Source: a virus
Direction: 5' to 3' (one strand)
Length of the DNA: 35,675 nt
IMG/VR virus record: IMGVR_UViG_3300022074_000163
Location: 1 to 35,675 of that record
The first letter of the stretch is position 1. Each line of letters opens with the position of its first letter. Shown piece after piece: positions 4,616-21,441 of the stretch. Under the pieces are notes generated by a model, which did no database searches, had not been told where the DNA came from, and saw nothing but the letters and a program-made list of their open reading frames with translations. The position numbers and the translations under genes are program-made.

Positions 4616-4906
4616 TTAACACTTCCACCTTCTACGAGCCTGTCTAATTCTTGAATTAGGATCATTTCTAGTTTTAGCTGAACTACGTTTAAGTTGTCCT
4701 AAAGACCTTGCACAATAAGACTTTCTACGTTTTGCTGCCTTACTACCTTTTTTAACTTTACCTGTTACTGCTGTTTTTAACTTAGAACCAGGATTTAACT
4801 TTCTATAAGCTTTAACTCCTGCCTTAGTCATTCCAGCTCCAGACTTAGTAGATCGGAAATTTTTTTTATTCCTAGGCGGCATCTTCGCCTGTTTTCTTAT
4901 AGGCAT
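4616..4906 (-). CDS. Small basic protein, DUF6321-like
   Basis: The 96-residue protein carries the block KAGVKAYRKLNPGSKLKTAVTGKVKKGSKAAKRRKSYCARSLGQ, which resembles a phage domain of unknown function I know as DUF6321. It ends in a conserved-looking RQARRRWKC tail. It has two cysteines (one in SYCARS, one at the C terminus) and very few acidic residues. It lies in a row of four lysine-rich small genes between the capsid region and the connectors. The molecular role is unknown. A DNA-condensing or head-internal protein is possible from charge alone. Confidence 0.5.
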   Translation of the reverse strand: MPIRKQAKMPPRNKKNFRSTKSGAGMTKAGVKAYRKLNPGSKLKTAVTGKVKKGSKAAKRRKSYCARSLGQLKRSSAKTRNDPNSRIRQARRRWKC

Positions 4907-5950: not shown

Positions 5951-6499
5951 TTACGCTATTTGAGTGTATTCAATAATAAATGTAAAAGAACCTGCAGTTG
6001 TAGCATCTACTGTATTAGTGATATTACAATAAATAGTTCTTTCAGTATCTGTATATTGAACAGAAGCTGGAGCTGTTGTGCCATCTTGTGTTTGTAAAAC
6101 TAAACTAGTTAATGTTACATTGTGAGCAACAACAGTTGTGCCACCATCGAGTATTTCATCAGTTTGAGCTGCAACAATTTGTGCACCAGAAGATGATGTA
6201 CCTACTTCATAACCAATATCACCTGTTCCAATAACAGGAGAAACATCACAAAATATTTTTATATCTGTGATGATTGTATTTGCTGGTTGAGTAAATTCAC
6301 CTATAGTTGGAGAATCTCCTGCTGTAGTATTTACTGTTACGCCAGTTGCAAAACCTACATGTTTTACATATTTATTAGTAACAATACCTGTAGATGCAAT
6401 AGTTGCTACATCTGAGACTGCACCTGTGCTTGAATTTTTTGAAATGACCTTGAATCCGTTTTCGGTTCTTACTGGTCCATTAAAAGTTGTGTTAGCCAT
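5951..6499 (-). CDS. Conserved virion protein, beta-rich, first gene after the capsid terminator
   Basis: The 182-residue protein starts MANTTFNGPVRTENGFKVISKNSSTGAVSDVATI and is Thr/Val/Gly-rich throughout, with beta-strand pattern (YVKHVGFATGVTVNTTAGDSPTIGEF, DIKIFCDVSPVIGTGDIGYEVG, SFTFIIEYTQIA). It has no helices or motifs of note. The family recurs beside capsid genes in uncultured marine phages and is presumed structural. The gene lies beyond the terminator that follows the capsid gene, so its expression depends on read-through or on a promoter in the 139-base gap, which I could not identify. Confidence 0.5.
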   Translation of the reverse strand: MANTTFNGPVRTENGFKVISKNSSTGAVSDVATIASTGIVTNKYVKHVGFATGVTVNTTAGDSPTIGEFTQPANTIITDIKIFCDVSPVIGTGDIGYEVGTSSSGAQIVAAQTDEILDGGTTVVAHNVTLTSLVLQTQDGTTAPASVQYTDTERTIYCNITNTVDATTAGSFTFIIEYTQIA

Positions 6500-15328: not shown

Positions 15329-15683
15329 GCAAATAATATTAACTGATCATAGGTCTTTTGGTAATGCTCACAGACTGCTATCTAATAAAATGTTTAATAT
15401 GGTGTTTCTTTTGTGTATACTGTCTCTACACAGTCCAAAACGATTATGACTTTAAACTGTAGCCAACCACCCTCAAGGGTTCTGAAAAGAGTAAGGTTGA
15501 AAGTGGTTCTAGCAGTAGGATTAGATAAGGTTCTTTGAGAAGGTCTAATTTGAATTCGCCCAAGAAAGTAGCTAGTGTGAGAGAGTGTAAAGCATAAGTG
15601 ACAATGTGAAGAAGCAAGACTCATAAAACCAAAAGGAAGTTATCTTTTTGCCAACTACAATTGCAGTATTAATGATGCGAATA
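15329..15683. other. Non-coding gap between divergent late and MoxR/VWA operons
   Basis: The gap separates terS (minus) from the plus-strand operon. Small inverted repeats are visible, for example TGTGTA and TACACA around 15411-15431. Three GGTTCT copies lie at 15478, 15505 and 15529. A GACTCATAAAA box near 15616 resembles the AACTCAT box found after the ribozymes downstream. Reading frames here (30 codons at 15446 on the plus strand, 76 codons on the minus strand) have no supporting features. A promoter for terS on the minus strand is expected but not clearly seen. Confidence 0.4.
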
Positions 15684-15712
15684 TTGTCTTTGGAATCACA
15701 AGAAGATATATA
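15684..15712 (+). promoter_or_regulatory. Sigma70-type promoter for the ribozyme operon
   Basis: A -35-like TTGTCT (15684-15689) and a -10-like TATATA (15707-15712) are separated by 17 bases. Transcription would start near 15719, at the base of the hairpin GGACTGA/TCAGTCC (15720-15739). It is placed to drive the operon that begins with the gene at 15804. The -35 match is weak, so this is a moderate prediction. Confidence 0.4.
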
Positions 15713-15726
15713 ACTTTTGGGACTGA

Positions 15727-15793
15727 CTCCAATCAGTCCGTGAATTAACACGCTGATGAGTATCCTAATTATGGGATGCAAGAAACTTTGGAG
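15727..15793 (+). ncRNA. Imperfect hammerhead-ribozyme candidate in the operon leader
   Basis: A core CTGATGA (15753-15759) is followed by a 6-bp stem II (GTATCC with GGATGC, 760-765 and 774-779) and GAAA (782-785). Stem I is CGTG/CACG (739-742 and 749-752), directly after a GTC cleavage triplet (736-738). Stem III could form from CTCCAA (727-732) with TTGGAG (788-793), plus AG/CT next to the core. Two faults reduce confidence: an extra AA between stem II and GAAA, and a two-base bulge in stem III. A competing hairpin (GGACTGA/TCAGTCC) uses the same 5' strand. The 3' strand of stem III is the Shine-Dalgarno of the next gene. Confidence 0.35.
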
Positions 15794-15803
15794 TAAATGT
15801 TTT

Positions 15804-16028
15804 ATGAGTAATACATATAGCAAACAAACACTTGAATTTAAAGAAACTTTGGAAAGGTTTATGCAAAGACTTGATTTAATACAACGTGAATACGATGAAA
15901 AAATAGACAAGCTTATTAAATTAAGAGAAAAAGAACTTACTATATATTGGGAACTCTTAGATCGAGAAAGACCTGAACTTGCGAACAAAAAAGTTGAAGT
16001 GGTTAACGATGAGCCAACTGATGATTAG
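15804..16028 (+). CDS. Small coiled-coil protein, first gene of the ribozyme operon
   Basis: The 74-residue protein is charged and helical (TLEFKETLERFMQRLDLIQREYDEKIDKLIKLREKELTIYWELLDRERPELANKK), with an acidic tail. Heptad-like spacing of L and I suggests a coiled coil. The chosen ATG at 15804 has TTTGGAG ten bases upstream; an in-frame ATG at 15756 has no ribosome site and would run through the leader structures. Its stop codon (16026-16028) lies inside stem II of the type I hammerhead ribozyme. I do not recognise the family. Its place before the MoxR-type ATPase suggests it belongs to that system. Confidence 0.5.
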   Translation: MSNTYSKQTLEFKETLERFMQRLDLIQREYDEKIDKLIKLREKELTIYWELLDRERPELANKKVEVVNDEPTDD

Positions 16029-16073
16029 CTGAAATGCTATGAAAACATCCTAATTATTTAGGGTGTTATTGGT
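16013..16073 (+). ncRNA. Type I hammerhead ribozyme
   Basis: All conserved parts are present in order. Stem I 5' strand GCCAA (16013-16017) is followed by core CTGATGA (16018-16024). Stem II is TAGC/GCTA with a U-U pair next to the core (16025-16040, loop TGAAAT), then GAAA (16041-16044). Stem III has 9 bp, ACATCCTAA with TTAGGGTGT (16045-16053 and 16058-16066, loop TTAT). The cleavage triplet is TTA (16066-16068), and stem I 3' strand is TTGGT (16069-16073). Cleavage is predicted after 16068. Stem I is open, which defines type I. The ribozyme overlaps the last codons and stop of the gene at 15804-16028, so translation to the end of that gene would disturb its fold. Confidence 0.8.
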
Positions 16074-16124
16074 GTAAGTGTAATGCTTACGAAAACTTAT
16101 ATATTTCTTTGGAGGGAAATTATT

Positions 16125-17189
16125 ATGTTTAAACCTAGTGAAGCAAAAAAATCCTGTTTACATATTTTGATGGGAAGCAATATCCCATTCTTAATTGGTG
16201 GAACAGGTGTTGGTAAATCTGCGATTGTTAAAGAGATCGCTGAGGAACTAGCGAATGATAGAACTCTTACAGACTCAACAAGTCCTAAAGATGATGAATT
16301 TGGATTTATCTCTTTTAGATTGGGGTTAGTGGAATCTATCGACTTAGGTGGTTTGCCATACATTGAAGATGGTGAGCAAAAGAAAGCATTTTTAGGCAAC
16401 TTGCCTAAGGATGGTGAAGGTCTATTTTTCCTTGATGAATTTGCTCAAGCACATTCAAGCGTTCAAGCAACGATAGGACAATTACTTGATCCAAAAGGTA
16501 AAGATGAAGATCGCAAGATTGGTGATTATATCTTTCCAAAAGGATGGAAAATTGTGTTGGCAGGTAATAGACATACTGATAGAAGTGGTGCGAATAAGGT
16601 GCTAAGGCATTGTCAAGATCGAACTACTGCAATTCAGTTTACCCACGATGTTGACGATTGGTTAGCGTGGGCAGATAAGAGCGACATTGATCTCAATGTG
16701 CAAGGTCTTATCAGATTCATGCCACAACTATTGTGGGAGTTTGACCCTAAGTGCAATGACCCTCAGCCAAGTCCAAGATCATGGGCAAGGTTAAGTGATA
16801 CGCTGAAAACTGACCCACCACGAGAACTTAGACAAAAGTTATTCGAAGGTGATGTTGGACAAGAATGTGCCATTGAATTGATGAACTTTATCTCACTTCA
16901 AAATGACGTGCCTAACATATCTAAAATATGTAAAGGTGAAGATGTTGAAATGATTGATGAAGCTGGTCTTTGCTATGCAACTACTATCGCTCTTACTAAT
17001 GCTATCAATAGTGCTAGTGAGAATGATGTCTATAACTATTTTGCTAATGCTTTGGATTATCTGAAGAAATTGGCAACTGTAGAATTTTCTATATTCTTTG
17101 TTAGAAAGATTGTTGGATTAAGAAGCGAACTTAAAGACTGCGATACTTATTCTAAATTTAAGATTGATAACCAAGACTTAGAAATTTAG
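16125..17189 (+). CDS. MoxR-type AAA+ ATPase
   Basis: The 354-residue protein has Walker A GGTGVGKS (residues 25-32), Walker B LFFLDE (100-105) and a sensor 1-like AGNRHTD (146-152), in the compact arrangement of MoxR/CbbQ-type AAA+ proteins. These hexameric ATPases act as chaperone-like remodelers, usually paired with a von Willebrand A protein. Such a partner is encoded two genes downstream (18438-19712). The start at 16125 has GGAGGG eight bases upstream; an earlier in-frame ATG at 16083 has none. A type I hammerhead ribozyme precedes the gene and a long hairpin plus a type III ribozyme follow it. The substrate in the phage cycle is unknown. Confidence 0.8.
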   Translation: MFKPSEAKKSCLHILMGSNIPFLIGGTGVGKSAIVKEIAEELANDRTLTDSTSPKDDEFGFISFRLGLVESIDLGGLPYIEDGEQKKAFLGNLPKDGEGLFFLDEFAQAHSSVQATIGQLLDPKGKDEDRKIGDYIFPKGWKIVLAGNRHTDRSGANKVLRHCQDRTTAIQFTHDVDDWLAWADKSDIDLNVQGLIRFMPQLLWEFDPKCNDPQPSPRSWARLSDTLKTDPPRELRQKLFEGDVGQECAIELMNFISLQNDVPNISKICKGEDVEMIDEAGLCYATTIALTNAINSASENDVYNYFANALDYLKKLATVEFSIFFVRKIVGLRSELKDCDTYSKFKIDNQDLEI

Positions 17190-17204
17190 ATTACCACCTA
17201 GGGG

Positions 17205-17250
17205 GGAATTAGGAATATTTATTATTGACTAGTAAATATTCCTTTTCTGC
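17205..17250 (+). repeat. Long hairpin at the 3' end of the MoxR gene
   Basis: A perfect 11-bp inverted repeat, AGGAATATTTA (17211-17221) with TAAATATTCCT (17233-17243), encloses an 11-base loop. Outer G and C runs (from about 17201 and up to 17250) can extend it. The 3' arm carries a minus-strand copy of the AAATATTTACYRGT element. It lies four bases before the hammerhead at 17254, so after cleavage it would become the 3' end structure of the upstream message. Confidence 0.6.
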
Positions 17251-17253
17251 CCA

Positions 17254-17308
17254 TTCTGATATTGAGATGTGTATCTCAACTGATGATTAGAAAACTATGA
17301 AATCAGAA
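17254..17308 (+). ncRNA. Type III hammerhead ribozyme
   Basis: Stem III is 6 bp, TTCTGA (17254-17259) with TCAGAA (17303-17308), and is the open stem. The cleavage triplet is ATA (17259-17261). Stem I is 7 bp, TTGAGAT with ATCTCAA (17262-17268 and 17273-17279, loop GTGT). The core CTGATGA is at 17280-17286. Stem II is TAG/CTA with a U-U pair next to the core (17287-17298, loop AAAA), and GAAA is at 17299-17302. Cleavage is predicted between 17261 and 17262. It lies in the gap between the MoxR gene and the 321-residue gene, 26 bases before the latter's start, and is followed by AACTCAT and the Shine-Dalgarno. Confidence 0.88.
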
Positions 17309-17334
17309 CTCATTTTATTTTTTTGGAGAAAAAT

Positions 17335-18300
17335 ATGAATAATGAAAATGTAAACACTTTATCTGAAAATGCGACTTTGGTGCGTTTGAATACAAAACAC
17401 CCATCTGGAGTTAAATCAGATAAGGATTTAAAAGAAGGTCTAGCAATAGATCAATCTGCAATGAGTGAATCTTTGCACGTTGCTAAATACATCTTTGGAA
17501 AAGAAACTAATAAATACTTTAGAAGAATTATTAATCAATTCAGAAATAATGTTTATTATCCTTTGACTGTTCCATGGGATGACAACACTAGCGACTACGA
17601 AGGCAAGGTCTTGAGTGGGTGGCGTTTATGCCCTAATCAGGAACTTGATACTCTTATGGATAAGGTAAACGAAGCTAAGAGTGATTTTGAGAAAGAGGTA
17701 AAAGGTTTTCTTGATAATTACGACAACTTGATTGATGCAAACAGGCATAAATTAGGTCATGCTTTTAAGATATCTGATTATCCAACTAAAGAGGAAATTG
17801 AAACTAAATTCAGATTTGATTTTGAGTTAGGACAAGTGCCAACTATTAGTAAAAGTGATGTGCGATTAAATGTATCAGAATCACTTAGAAAGAAGATTGA
17901 GCAAGATGCAATTAAGAGAGCCAACAAGAATGTAGAAGCTATTACTAGAACTACAGTGGAAACTCTTTTGGAATCCGTTGATCACCTAGCAGAAAAGTTA
18001 AAGTCTTATGACCCTAACAATAAGCAAGGTGGAGGATTCTTTAAGAACTCTAGTTTTAACAAGCTTAGACAATTTCTTGATACGCTTCCATCTATCAATA
18101 ATGACATTTTAAATAATGACAAATTGATTGCTGATGCTCATCAAAAATTAGTTAGCGTGTTTGCTTCTATTAATGACGTAGATTCTTTAAGAGAAGATGA
18201 TGATTATTCTGCTAAGAAACGAAAACAAATAGCAGATGATTTAGAAGATTCTGTTGATGAATTAAAAGGTGGATTCTTAGACAATATGTATAAGAAGTAA
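17335..18300 (+). CDS. MoxR/VWA-associated protein (DUF3150-like), function unknown
   Basis: The 321-residue protein starts at ATG 17335, six bases after GGAG. It is mainly helical and acidic. An N-terminal segment (AIDQSAMSESLHVAKYIFGKETNKYFRRIINQFRNNVYYPLTVPWDDN) is followed by a WRLCPNQELDTLMDKVNEAKSDFEKEVKGFLDNYDNLIDAN block and several long helices (SLRKKIEQDAIKRANKNVEAITRTTVETLLESVDHLAEKL). It resembles proteins annotated DUF3150 that lie between MoxR-type ATPases and VWA proteins in other phages; this is from memory and moderately uncertain. It is flanked on both sides by hairpin plus hammerhead modules. It may be the adaptor or target-binding component of the ATPase system. Confidence 0.55.
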   Translation: MNNENVNTLSENATLVRLNTKHPSGVKSDKDLKEGLAIDQSAMSESLHVAKYIFGKETNKYFRRIINQFRNNVYYPLTVPWDDNTSDYEGKVLSGWRLCPNQELDTLMDKVNEAKSDFEKEVKGFLDNYDNLIDANRHKLGHAFKISDYPTKEEIETKFRFDFELGQVPTISKSDVRLNVSESLRKKIEQDAIKRANKNVEAITRTTVETLLESVDHLAEKLKSYDPNNKQGGGFFKNSSFNKLRQFLDTLPSINNDILNNDKLIADAHQKLVSVFASINDVDSLREDDDYSAKKRKQIADDLEDSVDELKGGFLDNMYKK

Positions 18301-18309
18301 GCCAGTAAA

Positions 18310-18354
18310 GGGTGGAGAAAATATATTATTTACCAGTAAATATTCTTTCCATCC
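18310..18354 (+). repeat. Long hairpin at the 3' end of the DUF3150-like gene
   Basis: The 5' arm GGGTGGAGAAAATAT (18310-18324) pairs with the 3' arm ATATTCTTTCCATCC (18340-18354) over 15 positions with two G-U pairs and one A-C mismatch. Within the loop lies a second inverted repeat TATTTAC-CA-GTAAATA (18327-18342), which contains the AAATATTTACYRGT element. The next base begins stem III of the hammerhead at 18355, so the two structures stack end to end. Confidence 0.55.
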
Positions 18355-18407
18355 TTCTGTCTTTGGATGTGTGTCCAAACTGACGAGATCAAAAGATCGA
18401 AACAGAA
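18355..18407 (+). ncRNA. Type III hammerhead ribozyme (most canonical copy)
   Basis: Stem III is TTCTG (18355-18359) with CAGAA (18403-18407). The cleavage triplet is the canonical GTC (18359-18361). Stem I is TTTGGA/TCCAAA (18362-18367 and 18374-18379, loop TGTGTG). The core is CTGACGA (18380-18386). Stem II is GATC/GATC with an AAAA loop (18387-18398), including the canonical G-C pair next to the core, and GAAA is at 18399-18402. Every conserved core position is met. Cleavage is predicted between 18361 and 18362. It sits 30 bases before the VWA gene and is followed by AAACTCAT and TTTGGAGGGG. Confidence 0.93.
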
Positions 18408-18437
18408 ACTCATAAAAAATCTTTGGAGGGGTTAATT

Positions 18438-19712
18438 ATGAAAAGTGAAGAACGAATAATTAAAGCTAGATCGAAACTAATGAAAGGTAATATTGGTATG
18501 GCAACTATGCTACTAAAACTCACCTTAGTTAGAGAAGATGAAAAGTGTCAAACAATGGCTACTGATGGCGTTAGTATTTATTGGAATGATGAATTTGTTA
18601 AATCAATAACAGATGAGGAAATTCAAGCAGTATTAATACACGAAGCTAGTCATGTTATTTGGGAACATCCTTTGCGTAAGGGTAAGCGTGACCACCAACT
18701 TTGGAACATAGCCACAGACTATGTAATCAATGGGTGGTTAAAGTATGACTTGCGTATGGAACTTCCTGAGGATGGTCTGCTTGATCGCAAGTATCATGGT
18801 ATGTCTGCTGAAGCAGTTTATAGAACTCTTAGCAACGATGATGATGCTTTAGAAGAAGCGATAGATCAGATCAATAACAATTCTGAAGATGGTGAGACAA
18901 GCAATAGCAACGAGGGTCAAACTCTTGCTGAGAAACTTGCTGACTTACCTCAATTAAGTGGTGAGGTTTGGGTGCCAACTAATGAAGATGGCAAGGAATT
19001 ATCACCTAATGAAATGGCTGAACTACAAGAAGAATTGCAACGAACAATAATGATGGCTGATAAGCTAGAAGGTATTGGAGACAATGCAGAAAGTAGTTTG
19101 GGTAAAGCAGTTAAGCAGATGAACAGATCATGCGTTGATTGGGTTGATGTCATGCGAGACTTCTTACAGTCTGCTATGTCAAAAAATCCTACATGGTCAA
19201 GACTTAACAAACGTCATTCATGGCGTGGTGTTAATTTGCCTAGCAACGATAAAGAGCCACATGGTGGCGAGATTGTTGTTGCGATTGATACAAGTGGAAG
19301 TGTGACCCAAGAAGAACTTAATATTTTTGCTACTGAAACACAGAACTTAGCTGAAGAATGTGGAGTAGATAAAGTTAGAGTTTGTTATTGTGATACTAGA
19401 GTTCATAAGAATTCACATGGTGAGTGGTGGGATGAATACGACTTAGAATGTGAAGAACTTGAATTTCATCTTCGTGGTGGTGGTGGTACTGACTTCAATC
19501 CACCTTTCAACTTATTCAACGACTATACAGATAATACAGATGAAGTACTTGCTTTCATTTATTTTACTGATGGAGGTGGATATGTTGATAAGGAGGTTGA
19601 GCCAAATGTCCCTGTTATATGGGCATTAACTACTACTTACTATCAAGATTACTATAACGATATGAATTTTCCTTTTGGAGAAGAAGTAGTTATAGATATG
19701 TCTAGTATTTAA
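18438..19712 (+). CDS. Metallopeptidase-like / VWA-domain protein (DUF2201 type)
   Basis: The 424-residue protein starts at ATG 18438, six bases after GGAGGGG. The N-terminal domain contains HEASH (residues 68-72), a HExxH zinc-peptidase motif, followed by NIATDYVIN, as in the DUF2201 metallopeptidase-like domain. An acidic linker of about 70 residues follows. The C-terminal VWA domain has a complete MIDAS set: DTSGS (284-288), T351 in GGGGTDF and D378 in FTDGGG. This is the usual partner of a MoxR-type ATPase, and the two are in one operon here. The complex probably remodels or cleaves a protein target, either host or virion. The target is unknown, and whether the peptidase is active cannot be decided from sequence. 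Confidence 0.8.
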   Translation: MKSEERIIKARSKLMKGNIGMATMLLKLTLVREDEKCQTMATDGVSIYWNDEFVKSITDEEIQAVLIHEASHVIWEHPLRKGKRDHQLWNIATDYVINGWLKYDLRMELPEDGLLDRKYHGMSAEAVYRTLSNDDDALEEAIDQINNNSEDGETSNSNEGQTLAEKLADLPQLSGEVWVPTNEDGKELSPNEMAELQEELQRTIMMADKLEGIGDNAESSLGKAVKQMNRSCVDWVDVMRDFLQSAMSKNPTWSRLNKRHSWRGVNLPSNDKEPHGGEIVVAIDTSGSVTQEELNIFATETQNLAEECGVDKVRVCYCDTRVHKNSHGEWWDEYDLECEELEFHLRGGGGTDFNPPFNLFNDYTDNTDEVLAFIYFTDGGGYVDKEVEPNVPVIWALTTTYYQDYYNDMNFPFGEEVVIDMSSI

Positions 19713-19778
19713 TTATCTAATGCGTTCTAAGGGTAGGCAATTTTGGGGTATCTTATGCCCTTGCCTACTCTTAGATAA
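19713..19778 (+). repeat. Long composite hairpin after the VWA gene
   Basis: Three nested inverted repeats share one axis: TTATCTAA (19713-19720) with TTAGATAA (19771-19778), TAAGGGTAGGCAA (19728-19740) with TTGCCTACTCTTA (19761-19773), and an inner GGGTAT/ATGCCC (19746-19751 and 19755-19760). There is no following T run, so it is not a simple terminator. It precedes the hammerhead at 19815 and would cap the 3' end of the VWA message after cleavage. Confidence 0.6.
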
Positions 19779-19814
19779 TGCAACACACGAAGTCTCACGA
19801 AGTCATTTTTGCCA

Positions 19815-19872
19815 AAACTGTATAGGAAATGCGTATTTCCTACTGATGATCGCTAAAAGCGTGAAACAGTTT
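19815..19872 (+). ncRNA. Type III hammerhead ribozyme
   Basis: Stem III is AAACTG (19815-19820) with CAGTTT (19867-19872). The cleavage triplet is GTA (19820-19822). Stem I is a perfect 8 bp, TAGGAAAT with ATTTCCTA (19823-19830 and 19835-19842, loop GCGT). The core CTGATGA is at 19843-19849. Stem II is CGC/GCG with a U-U pair next to the core (19850-19862, loop TAAAA), and GAAA is at 19863-19866. Cleavage is predicted between 19822 and 19823. AACTCAT (19877-19883) and TTGGAG follow before the next gene at 19904. Confidence 0.88.
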
Positions 19873-19903
19873 ATTTAACTCATAAATGTTATTGGAGAAA
19901 CAA

Positions 19904-20170
19904 ATGACGAATAGAGAACTGTTAGAATTTACTTTGAAAGTAAACATAGGAACTTGCAACGAAATCTATACAAAGATTGATAGGCGACTAGAAGAAAGAT
20001 CAGATATTGATTTGGCTCTAGTTAAATATTTCAATACTTTGGTCACGATTAATCACAAAGTACAAGATGTTTTATATAAGCAAAGGGCAGATATGGATTT
20101 GCCCTTTCCTAAACATCTTGCATTTAATGAGAATAACGAGATTGTAGAGGTTGAAGTGCAAGAATTATAA
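19904..20170 (+). CDS. Small protein downstream of the VWA gene, function unknown
   Basis: The 88-residue protein starts at ATG 19904, six bases after GGAG; an earlier in-frame start lies inside the ribozyme. It is helical (TNRELLEFTLKVNIGTCNEIYTKIDRRLEERSDIDLALVKYFNTLVTINHKVQDVLYKQRADM) with an acidic tail (NENNEIVEVEVQEL). No family is recognised. It has its own hammerhead-processed leader like the MoxR, DUF3150-like and VWA genes, so it is the fourth plus-strand gene carrying that leader type. Confidence 0.55.
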   Translation: MTNRELLEFTLKVNIGTCNEIYTKIDRRLEERSDIDLALVKYFNTLVTINHKVQDVLYKQRADMDLPFPKHLAFNENNEIVEVEVQEL

Positions 20171-20206
20171 ATGATTTTTGTTTGTGTTAGAGGAAGCGAA
20201 AATGAT

Positions 20207-20452
20207 ATGACTAATACAAATAAAAAGTCCTCTATGTATATCATAGAGCGGGGTGTCCCTACACCTTGTCACCCAAATAAGGGAAAATGGGCAACTATTG
20301 TGTCCGAAATGAATGATGGTGACTCCATTGTTGTTGCTAGCTATAGCGAAACAAATTCAATGAGACAAGCAATTATTCGTAGTGGGAGAAAATCTGTTGC
20401 TCGAGAACTGCCTGATGGCAGTTTTAGAGTGTGGAAATTACCCAAACAATAG
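20207..20452 (+). CDS. Small DUF7303-like protein, last gene of the operon
   Basis: The likely start (20207) gives 81 residues and has AGAGGA about 12 bases upstream; a start at 20171 directly after the previous stop is possible but lacks a ribosome site. The pattern YIIERGVPTP, WATIVSEMNDGDSIVVASYSE, then RELPDGSFRVWKLPK matches a small phage family with an IPxP start, a central GDS and a closing RVWR/K strand. The protein at 24534-24776 is of the same type. I recall the name DUF7303; function is unknown. A strong terminator follows eight bases after the stop. Confidence 0.5.
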   Translation: MTNTNKKSSMYIIERGVPTPCHPNKGKWATIVSEMNDGDSIVVASYSETNSMRQAIIRSGRKSVARELPDGSFRVWKLPKQ

Positions 20453-20459
20453 AATAATT

Positions 20460-20504
20460 AAGGCGTGATGCTACTGTAAAAGGTGGTGTCACGCCTTTTT
20501 TTTT
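20460..20504 (+). terminator. Rho-independent terminator of the ribozyme operon
   Basis: AAGGCGTGA pairs with TCACGCCTT around an inner CTACT/GGTGG stem, followed by nine T residues. It closes the plus-strand operon right after the gene ending at 20452. Confidence 0.88.
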
Positions 20505-20551
20505 GGTCTAAAAAAAGCCAACAAGCTCAGCAAAAAACCCTGCTAAAGAAT

Positions 20552-20622
20552 AAATATTTACTAGTATATTGTTTTTCATGAGAGAAAATCCACCAGTCCA
20601 AAATGAAAAAATATTTACTGGT
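20552..20622 (+). promoter_or_regulatory. Two copies of the AAATATTTACYRGT element
   Basis: Plus-strand copies lie at 20552-20576 (AAATATTTACTAGT followed by ATATTGTTTTT) and 20609-20622 (AAATATTTACTGGT). Related copies precede the RusA gene (28655-28680) and the gene at 29148 (29109-29130), and inverted copies lie in the hairpins near 17228 and 18332. Their recurrence in gaps suggests a phage promoter or a protein-binding site. Both copies here lie upstream of the predicted small RNA. Confidence 0.45.
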
Positions 20623-20665
20623 TTTTTCGGTGTGGATAAGTCTGTAGATAAAGTGTGAATAAGTC

Positions 20666-20694
20666 TTGCAATCTGCAATCAGTTATATTATATT
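20666..20694 (+). promoter_or_regulatory. Sigma70-type promoter for the small RNA
   Basis: TTGCAA (20666-20671) and TATATT (20689-20694) are 17 bases apart. This predicts a start near 20701, which would give a transcript of about 98 bases ending at the terminator at 20798. The -10 matches five of six consensus bases; the -35 matches four. Confidence 0.45.
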
Positions 20695-20700
20695 GATAAT

Positions 20701-20798
20701 CAAGATTTGATTTCTGTCTTATTGACGAAATTCATTTTGATTACCTCCAAAAAACTATGTGAGTTTTAGGGACAATCGCAAGGTTGTCCCTTTTTTTT
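20701..20798 (+). ncRNA. Candidate antisense small RNA targeting the ribozyme-operon leaders
   Basis: The RNA would have a 5' region, a seed segment at 20744-20767 (CCTCCAAAAAAC, then GTGAGTTTT) and a terminator hairpin directly after it. The seed is complementary in two blocks to leaders of the plus-strand operon. For the gene at 17335, 20745-20754 pairs with 17319-17328 (the Shine-Dalgarno, 10 bp), and 20759-20767 pairs with 17305-17313 (the AACTCAT box, 9 pairs with two G-U). The same two blocks can pair with the leaders at 16092-16115, 18405-18429 and, more weakly, 19877-19897. Pairing would hide the ribosome site. The alternative is a minus-strand leader (GGAGG before an 11-codon frame), but the terminator faces the plus direction. 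Confidence 0.5.
20768..20798 (+). terminator. Rho-independent terminator of the small RNA
   Basis: AGGGACAA (20768-20775) pairs perfectly with TTGTCCCT (20784-20791) and is followed by a T run to 20798. No protein gene ends nearby on the plus strand after the terminator at 20504, so it must serve a separate short transcript. Confidence 0.88.
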
Positions 20799-20819
20799 GA
20801 TAGTTTATAGATAGTCTAC

Positions 20820-20835
20820 TGTTCCACATGGAACA
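20820..20835. promoter_or_regulatory. parS-like 16-mer
   Basis: The sequence TGTTCCACATGGAACA differs by one base from the chromosomal parS form TGTTCCACGTGGAACA bound by ParB proteins of many bacteria. Its 6-bp arms are perfectly inverted. It lies in a gap 44 bases before the gene at 20880. It may bind host ParB or act as an operator for another regulator. Confidence 0.45.
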
Positions 20836-20879
20836 ATGTGTATTTCACTTTGATAGCATTATGCAGTACAATATCATCC

Positions 20880-21197
20880 ATGTATGCTGTAATTAGACAC
20901 ACATATAAACTAGATATACCTGAGCCAAGAAATGTTCACTCTACAAAGTCTAGTGCTAAGTGGGTGCATCTAGTTTGGTTATTTGAAACTGAACTAGACG
21001 CTATTGCTTTTGCTGTATCTTTGTTAGATGACCCTTTGATTATGTCAAATAAATGGCTGATTGAGGGTGCCATAAAACAATTAGAGGTAGATAGGTTTTA
21101 TCAAGTTGGTAGAGAAAGTGTGGCTATTGCAGAAGTTCAAGATAGTGTAGATATATTCTATACAGGAGAAAAGAAAGATGAAAAGTCTATTCATTAG
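20880..21197 (+). CDS. Hypothetical protein upstream of the RHH gene
   Basis: The 105-residue protein (starting MYAVIRHTYKLDIPEPRNVHSTKSSAKWVHLVWLFETELDAIAFAVSLLD) looks like a small alpha/beta domain: a strand, a loop, then an aromatic-rich helix and a closing strand (VDIFYTGEKK). I do not recognise the family. ATG 20880 is the first sensible start after the regulatory gap, but no ribosome site is visible. An in-frame start at 20838 is also possible. Its end overlaps the RHH gene's start by 20 bases, so the two are probably co-translated. Confidence 0.5.
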   Translation: MYAVIRHTYKLDIPEPRNVHSTKSSAKWVHLVWLFETELDAIAFAVSLLDDPLIMSNKWLIEGAIKQLEVDRFYQVGRESVAIAEVQDSVDIFYTGEKKDEKSIH

Positions 21198-21441
21198 ATG
21201 TTCAGAAGAAACCTATGAATTGGCACACTCTTTGGCTAAGAAGGAAAATCGCTCATTAAATAAGCAGATTATCCACATGATACATACCGAAGCTGATAAC
21301 AAAAACATATCTATAGAAGAAGATCAAGCTGAACAAGATGGTAAAGCTGTCTATAGTGGTGCTGTCACTAGCGAAAACTATGAATCTAAACTTGGTTTGC
21401 GAGGGATTGCTGAAACAAAGAAACAGGATTCTTATGATTAA
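21178..21441 (+). CDS. Ribbon-helix-helix (Arc/MetJ-type) DNA-binding protein
   Basis: The 87-residue protein opens with MKSLFIRCSEETYELAHSLAKKENRSLNKQIIHMIHTEA. This is a short strand with alternating residues (LFIRC), then two helices separated by a turn (ENRSLN), which is the RHH pattern of dimeric repressors. The remaining C-terminal part is polar and of unknown role. It is preceded by GGAG nine bases upstream and overlaps the gene before it. It could bind one of the inverted-repeat operators in this window, such as the TAGTAAGT sites or the palindrome at 24063-24079. Its 3' end overlaps the convergent gene at 21386-21925. Confidence 0.6.
   Translation: MKSLFIRCSEETYELAHSLAKKENRSLNKQIIHMIHTEADNKNISIEEDQAEQDGKAVYSGAVTSENYESKLGLRGIAETKKQDSYD

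Follow-up and report, generated by a model that had tools for sequence, protein, structure and literature searches.

The antisense RNA c4 uses two short complementary blocks, one of which lies over a ribosome-binding site. In the passages that treat it (PMC8198154, PMC12197685; Citron and Schuster 1990 cited there), c4 appears as a small antisense RNA, encoded by phages P1 and P7, that controls phage genes, lies in the operon of its target and regulates a single message. PreS, sar, OOP and VpdS are further phage regulatory small RNAs (sRNAs), of which sar blocks phage-gene translation by pairing; these RNAs are credited with one or a few targets each, and none is said to address a set of standard leaders that follow self-cleaving ribozymes (PMC12197685). 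In alphaproteobacteria, the alpha-r14 sRNA NfeR1 and the related AbcR sRNAs use unpaired anti-Shine-Dalgarno seeds, among stems of variable sequence, to block initiation on several targets; these RNAs are host chromosomal, with three hairpins and CCUCCUCCC seeds (PMC10746234). Hammerhead ribozymes, in turn, have been found clustered around prophage genes, with several between the genes of phage transcripts, and were proposed to yield single-gene mRNAs; the parts of that source concerned with these arrays name no sRNA that targets the leaders so produced (PMC3088659).

Here we describe a locus that resembles these systems in part, in a virus contig record from IMG/VR analyzed over 35,675 nucleotides (the window). 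From its sequence, we think it probable that positions 20701–20798 encode a phage trans-acting antisense sRNA that would block ribosome binding on ribozyme-cut messages together. It is phage-encoded, as PreS, sar, OOP, VpdS and c4 are, and like c4 would be a small antisense RNA controlling phage genes, but its gene is separate from its targets and it fits at least four leaders. With NfeR1 and AbcR it shares an unpaired anti-Shine-Dalgarno seed and several predicted targets; unlike them, it has no set of three hairpins each with CCUCCUCCC, carrying instead one (A/U)CCUCC seed per RNA plus a second seed, both matched to phage leaders, and it has no Rfam match. Indeed, no Rfam model reached its gathering threshold anywhere in the window, and no C4 match was found at E up to 10 in 15500–20900; we rejected AniS (RF02274; 24.5 bits and E 0.54 against a gathering score of 50 bits) and PsrR1, whose match lay far below threshold. 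A small open-access literature search returned no paper joining phage ribozyme arrays with an antisense or anti-Shine-Dalgarno sRNA, and while the sRNA class is known, its arrangement with ribozyme leaders appears to be new.

A predicted sRNA gene 3' of a ribozyme-linked operon

The plus-strand operon at 15804–20449 codes for a MoxR-like AAA ATPase, a DUF3150 protein, a DUF2201 metallopeptidase/VWA-like protein and small proteins, with several of its genes preceded by hammerhead-like elements. The gene at 18438–19709 falls in PHROG family 1314, labeled HNH endonuclease, whereas Pfam finds DUF2201 metallopeptidase and VWA-like domains, and the PHROG label is probably wrong in phage annotation. 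Some gaps of the region (17211–17243, 18320–18350, 20550–20565 and 20608–20620) hold partly palindromic interspersed repeats, AATATTTACTGGTAAATATT, which flank small variable inserts in relatives and have a mobile or site-specific appearance.

The predicted sRNA gene (about 98 nt, 20701–20798, plus strand; called from sequence, folds and homologues in relatives) sits in the gap 3' of this operon. A strong terminator conserved in relatives (20460–20497, plus strand) and the separate promoter of the sRNA lie in between, so that the predicted RNA and its targets are not in one transcript as c4 and its target are. That promoter (20666–20694, plus strand) has a -35 of TTGCAA, a spacer of 17 and a -10 of TATATT, and the same element recurs in most relatives, its -35 falling inside a conserved TTGCAnnnTGCnATC motif. 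Because a generic promoter scan of the window yielded 30 hits against 33 expected in shuffles, i.e., not above chance, support for the promoter comes from conservation and not from the pattern.

All further parts of the gene also lie on the plus strand. A 5' hairpin, H1 (20701–20739), varies in sequence in almost every clade, and in most members a hairpin is kept just 5' of the seed. The unpaired segment between H1 and the second hairpin, ATTACCTCCA, contains seed 1 (ACCTCCA, 20743–20749), an anti-Shine-Dalgarno block whose CCTCC is present in all members found. The fold then shows hairpin H2 (AAAACT-atgtg-AGTTTT, 20751–20767), whose 3' side (20758–20766) forms block 2, or seed 2, and is complementary to the AACT box of the operon leaders, as judged from sequence and duplex tests. 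An intrinsic terminator with a 10-bp stem (20768–20791) and a T8 tract closes the gene (20768–20798); six of its seven consensus pairs have changes on both sides in relatives, and the U8 tail of the predicted RNA would be compatible with Hfq binding.

Directly upstream of the promoter, in the window and in many relatives, lie three DnaA-box-like repeats (TGTGGATAA, TGTAGATAA and TGTGAATAA; 20631–20662), which likely mark a replication origin region close to the primase/helicase gene. These repeats speak for a DNA or replication-origin element with no RNA role, yet the conserved promoter, the terminator and the complementarity to the leaders would have no role in such an element, and we give this reading next to no chance; an origin element is probably present nearby as well, yet leaves the complementarity unexplained. 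On the other side of the gene, 20820–20880 contains a conserved palindrome, TGTTCCACATGGAACA, followed by a promoter whose -10 ends about 7–8 nt before the ATG of the gene at 20880. This gene looks leaderless and therefore should escape an anti-Shine-Dalgarno sRNA. Its promoter and that of the sRNA carry a common motif in opposite orientation (GATnGCAnnnTGCA at 20850–20866 and TTGCAnnnTGCnATC at 20666–20680, respectively), and both may answer to a single regulator, for which the Arc-like protein at 21178–21438 is a candidate.

Leaders behind the ribozymes and their pairing in the window

Our calls of gene starts and hammerheads come from simple scripts, and a strict hammerhead check demanded a CUGANGA...GAAA core, three stems and a UH cleavage site. 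In the window, the element at 18380 passed this check; overall, 22 distinct copies did so, compared with 0 in a shuffled copy. This element, a type III hammerhead ribozyme (18354–18406, plus strand) with a complete core and stems I/II/III of 7/4/6 bp, precedes the leader of the gene at 18438. The remaining hammerhead-like elements of the window did not pass: those before the 17335 and 19904 leaders (17250–17306 and 19814–19873, plus strand) each have a mismatch at the base of stem II, one with a type I layout was recognized from sequence before the 16125 leader (16005–16075, plus strand), and another precedes gene 15804 (15722–15800). Because the Rfam hammerhead models RF00008 and RF00163 gave no match to these ribozymes, including in 15500–20900, the ribozyme assignment rests on the core and stem checks; some of the elements that the models miss in 15500–20900 have a complete core and three stems.

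An AACT box comes immediately after the stem III strand of the ribozyme, and a Shine-Dalgarno (SD) sequence follows in each of four plus-strand leaders. These are the leaders of the MoxR-like AAA ATPase gene at 16125 (16092–16116; AAAACTTATA box and CTTTGGAGGG), the DUF3150 gene at 17335 (17307–17328; AACTCAT box and TTTTGGAG), the DUF2201 metallopeptidase/VWA-like gene at 18438 (18407–18429; AACTCAT box and CTTTGGAGG) and the gene for an 88-aa protein at 19904 (19877–19897; AACTCAT box and TTGGAG). The pattern AACTCAN{6,18}TTGGAG occurs 4 times in the window against 0.17 expected, three times in operon leaders on the plus strand and once antisense to the sRNA segment (minus strand, 20745–20765).

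Predicted duplex energies with the sRNA were -25.2 kcal/mol for the 16125 leader (rank 1), -23.1 for 18438, -21.5 for 17335 and -16.7 for 19904, values matched by none of 300 dinucleotide shuffles of the sRNA segment. When ACCTCCA was kept and block 2 alone was shuffled, the energies of 16125, 18438 and 17335 were still reached in 0/300 cases and that of 19904 in 21/300, so the second block adds real binding. These leaders take ranks 1–4 among the 22 called GGAG gene starts, and in a scan of both strands of the window by the pairing region of the sRNA (duplex energy in 45-base windows), those of 16125, 18438 and 17335 ranked 1, 3 and 4. The two-block complementarity to the 17335 leader in the original prediction, and the similar matches it had listed for the other three leaders, are thus borne out. 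Its further suggestion, that all ribozyme-processed messages could be silenced together, holds as a prediction for four of the five ribozyme-linked genes in the window; the fifth, 15804, is not a predicted target (-10.0 kcal/mol, with 121/300 shuffles as good). The SD of 15804 is located inside the stem of its own ribozyme, in the 3' strand of stem III, and cleavage itself could therefore expose it.

Conservation and co-variation in related phages

The same sRNA gene stands at the same place in dozens of related viral contigs, which belong to a family of uncultured, mostly marine phages. Ranging from near-identical to 52% identity in the neighboring primase, the homologous gaps keep the promoter, the CCTCC seed and the terminator while the remainder varies; across these dozens of loci CCTCC is invariant and its flanks variable. 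Most predicted folds retain the order of hairpin, seed, second hairpin (in most cases) and terminator, and the seed has a mean unpaired probability of 0.79, compared with 0.66 when the 5' part is shuffled. RNAalifold on a MAFFT alignment recovered the terminator alone, because H1 and H2 are too divergent from clade to clade, and conservation of these two hairpins is thus judged from single-sequence folds. The layout of a bacterial trans-acting sRNA, which the original prediction had seen in a seed set directly before a terminator hairpin, is present in the window and conserved in relatives: a promoter (supported by conservation), a U-tailed terminator and a mostly unpaired seed with beyond-chance complementarity to ribosome-binding sites encoded elsewhere.

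Several genomes carry the sRNA with zero or one detected ribozyme leader. In L058, near 6200–6350, a seed is present with no U-tailed terminator behind it, and L100 has a complete sRNA near 4656 that the automatic filter overlooked. Neither the sRNA nor hammerhead leaders were found in cultured phages with related terminases, namely the Pelagibacter phages HTVC027P (searched from beyond its first few hundred bases) and HTVC023P as well as 023Pt_psg01 and DSL-LC04 (most of each of these three); a GTDB scan gave distant primase relatives and nothing closer.

The relatives also bear on whether the minus strand could be the functional one, as the leader of a small gene (AACTCA, TTGGAGG, ATG), in which case the antisense match would only reproduce a leader of the operon type. 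In the window this strand has TTGGAGGTAATCAAAATG and an 11-codon ORF, and a start codon stands close to GGAGG in many relatives; against this, the ORFs range from 2 to 73 codons with unrelated sequences, 7 of 30 genomes have none (no start codon), and it is the plus strand on which relatives keep the promoter, the 5' hairpin and a terminator with a U tail. With no conserved ORF, we reject a minus-strand gene as very unlikely.

Comparison between genomes further shows that the sRNA and the ribozyme leaders co-vary. Across 29 genomes with 97 hammerhead leaders and 265 other GGAG starts, the block 1 run averaged 8.44 in hammerhead leaders with their own seed versus 7.18 ± 0.20 with swapped seeds (0/5000), although such shuffle p-values overstate significance because the genomes are related; other GGAG starts gave 6.28 versus 5.99. 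Within the same genomes, the fit of the own seed was 8.5 for ribozyme leaders and 6.1 for other GGAG starts (within-genome Wilcoxon 2e-6). For block 2 (24 genomes), the longest exact match to the own ribozyme leaders was 6.60, compared with 5.40 ± 0.16 for swapped pairs (0/5000, to be read with the same reservation), 5.20 with letters shuffled and 5.24 for the sense strand, and other starts gave 5.10 versus 4.90. The longest block 2 matches reach 12–13 bases in L113 and 10 bases in L039; since block 2 matches own leaders across clades, it is not just a hairpin peculiar to the clade of the window.

Common descent is best controlled for by taking, for each genome, the closest relative whose sRNA differs. 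Against the sRNA of that relative, the whole duplex with the own sRNA was stronger in 21 of 29 genomes (21:8), by a mean of 1.86 kcal/mol (p = 0.003), while non-ribozyme starts gained 0.22 kcal/mol (p = 0.22). Single blocks compared with the sister's sRNA were not significant (17:8 for seed 1 and 13:8 for block 2, with the same counts for other starts); the co-variation expected of a trans-acting sRNA and its targets is thus weak in these single-block tests and supported by the whole duplex.

The changes can be followed clade by clade. The seed CCTCCAAA of the window goes with the leader TTTGGAGG, L025–L033 have CCTCCAAG with leaders CTTGGAGG, L039–L049 have CCTCCAT with ATGGAGG, and L113–L121 have CACCTCC with GGAGGTG. 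ATCCTCC meets GGAGGA leaders in L059, L083, L087, L088, L091 and L092, and L114 pairs a CCTCCTAC seed with a TAGGAGG leader where its sister L107 pairs CCTCCAGTC with GACTGGAGG. Seeds and leaders mismatch in L036–L038, L053, L064 and L035/L066, and among the closest relatives of the window some AACTCAT boxes have drifted (AACACAT, AACTCTT) with the sRNA unchanged. Independent divergence of seed and leaders, which would have counted against the original prediction, was not seen overall: the two change together between clades, with some boxes drifted.

The 3' end of 16S rRNA reads CCUCCU, and the best SD is therefore AGGAGG. The ribozyme leaders read TGGAGG, which pairs with the CCUCCA of the sRNA and not with the CCUCCU of 16S. 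Where the sRNA has CCUCCA, T precedes GGAGG in 77/83 hammerhead leaders, whereas both A (95) and T (77) are common at other starts; GGAGGA is found in 11/12 hammerhead leaders matched with UCCUCC seeds versus 19/81 with ACCUCC. These departures from a plain SD point to pairing with the sRNA. They also bear on the idea of a general anti-SD RNA acting on host or any mRNAs, which the ribozyme leaders would fit merely through their strong SDs. CCUCC does resemble the 16S anti-SD, and a smaller own-versus-swapped signal exists for non-ribozyme starts too. However, with GGAGG held constant, the fit beyond it is twice as long in hammerhead leaders (3.25 extra pairs versus 1.56 in other starts, p = 4e-16); moreover, block 2 lies outside the SD, and the seed A departs from 16S where the ribozyme leaders have T. 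Because of block 2 and this -1 base, a general anti-SD role fits worse, and we hold it to be improbable.

Proposed mode of action and its meaning

The co-variation and complementarity support the earlier interpretation as a trans-acting sRNA on ribozyme-operon leaders, as far as sequence can tell. In the mechanism we propose, ribozyme cleavage would divide the operon transcript into messages of one gene each whose 5' leaders are nearly the same, and one sRNA could therefore block ribosome binding on several of them. The sRNA, about 98 nt long, would be made from its own promoter and end at the intrinsic terminator; seed 1 (ACCUCCA), left unpaired between two hairpins, would pair with the TGGAGG SD in a short hairpin loop, and seed 2, within H2, with the AACT box immediately 3' of the ribozyme.

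Such a loop is a frequent feature of these leaders. The SD of hammerhead leaders tends to occupy the loop of a short hairpin with a variable stem (e.g., GTCC-TTGGAG-GGAC or TTAC-TTGGAG-GTAA), with a stem of at least 4 bp in 82% of hammerhead leaders versus 53% in flank shuffles (maximum 66%), compared with 44% versus 37% for other starts. The unpaired seed would thus meet the SD loop while the H2 region meets the AACT box. Given this hairpin and the position of the AACT box directly behind stem III, pairing could remodel the leader, and the same sRNA might act mainly on ribozyme folding or cleavage, on mRNA stability, or by opening the leader (activation). Seed 1 nevertheless covers the SD itself, which normally blocks initiation, and the sRNAs of alphaproteobacteria that carry anti-SD seeds act as silencers of their targets (PMC10746234); a main effect other than repression seems to us unlikely, if less far-fetched than a general anti-SD role. 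We infer repression as the sign because the ribosome-binding site is covered.

On balance, we lean toward a phage regulon built from RNA only, in which ribozymes would make units with a standard leader (an AACT box together with an SD within the loop of a hairpin) and one two-seed, co-evolving sRNA would address the set, across what would be a large family of uncultured phages. It is an open question why hammerhead ribozymes stand in arrays between phage genes, and the locus suggests an answer: the ribozymes may furnish every gene with a separate 5' end that bears a standard address, such that one RNA could control the genes together. The natural seed/target pairs in tens of lineages offer material for studies of sRNA-target co-evolution, and for the phages themselves, a single RNA could serve as a joint switch for several messages.
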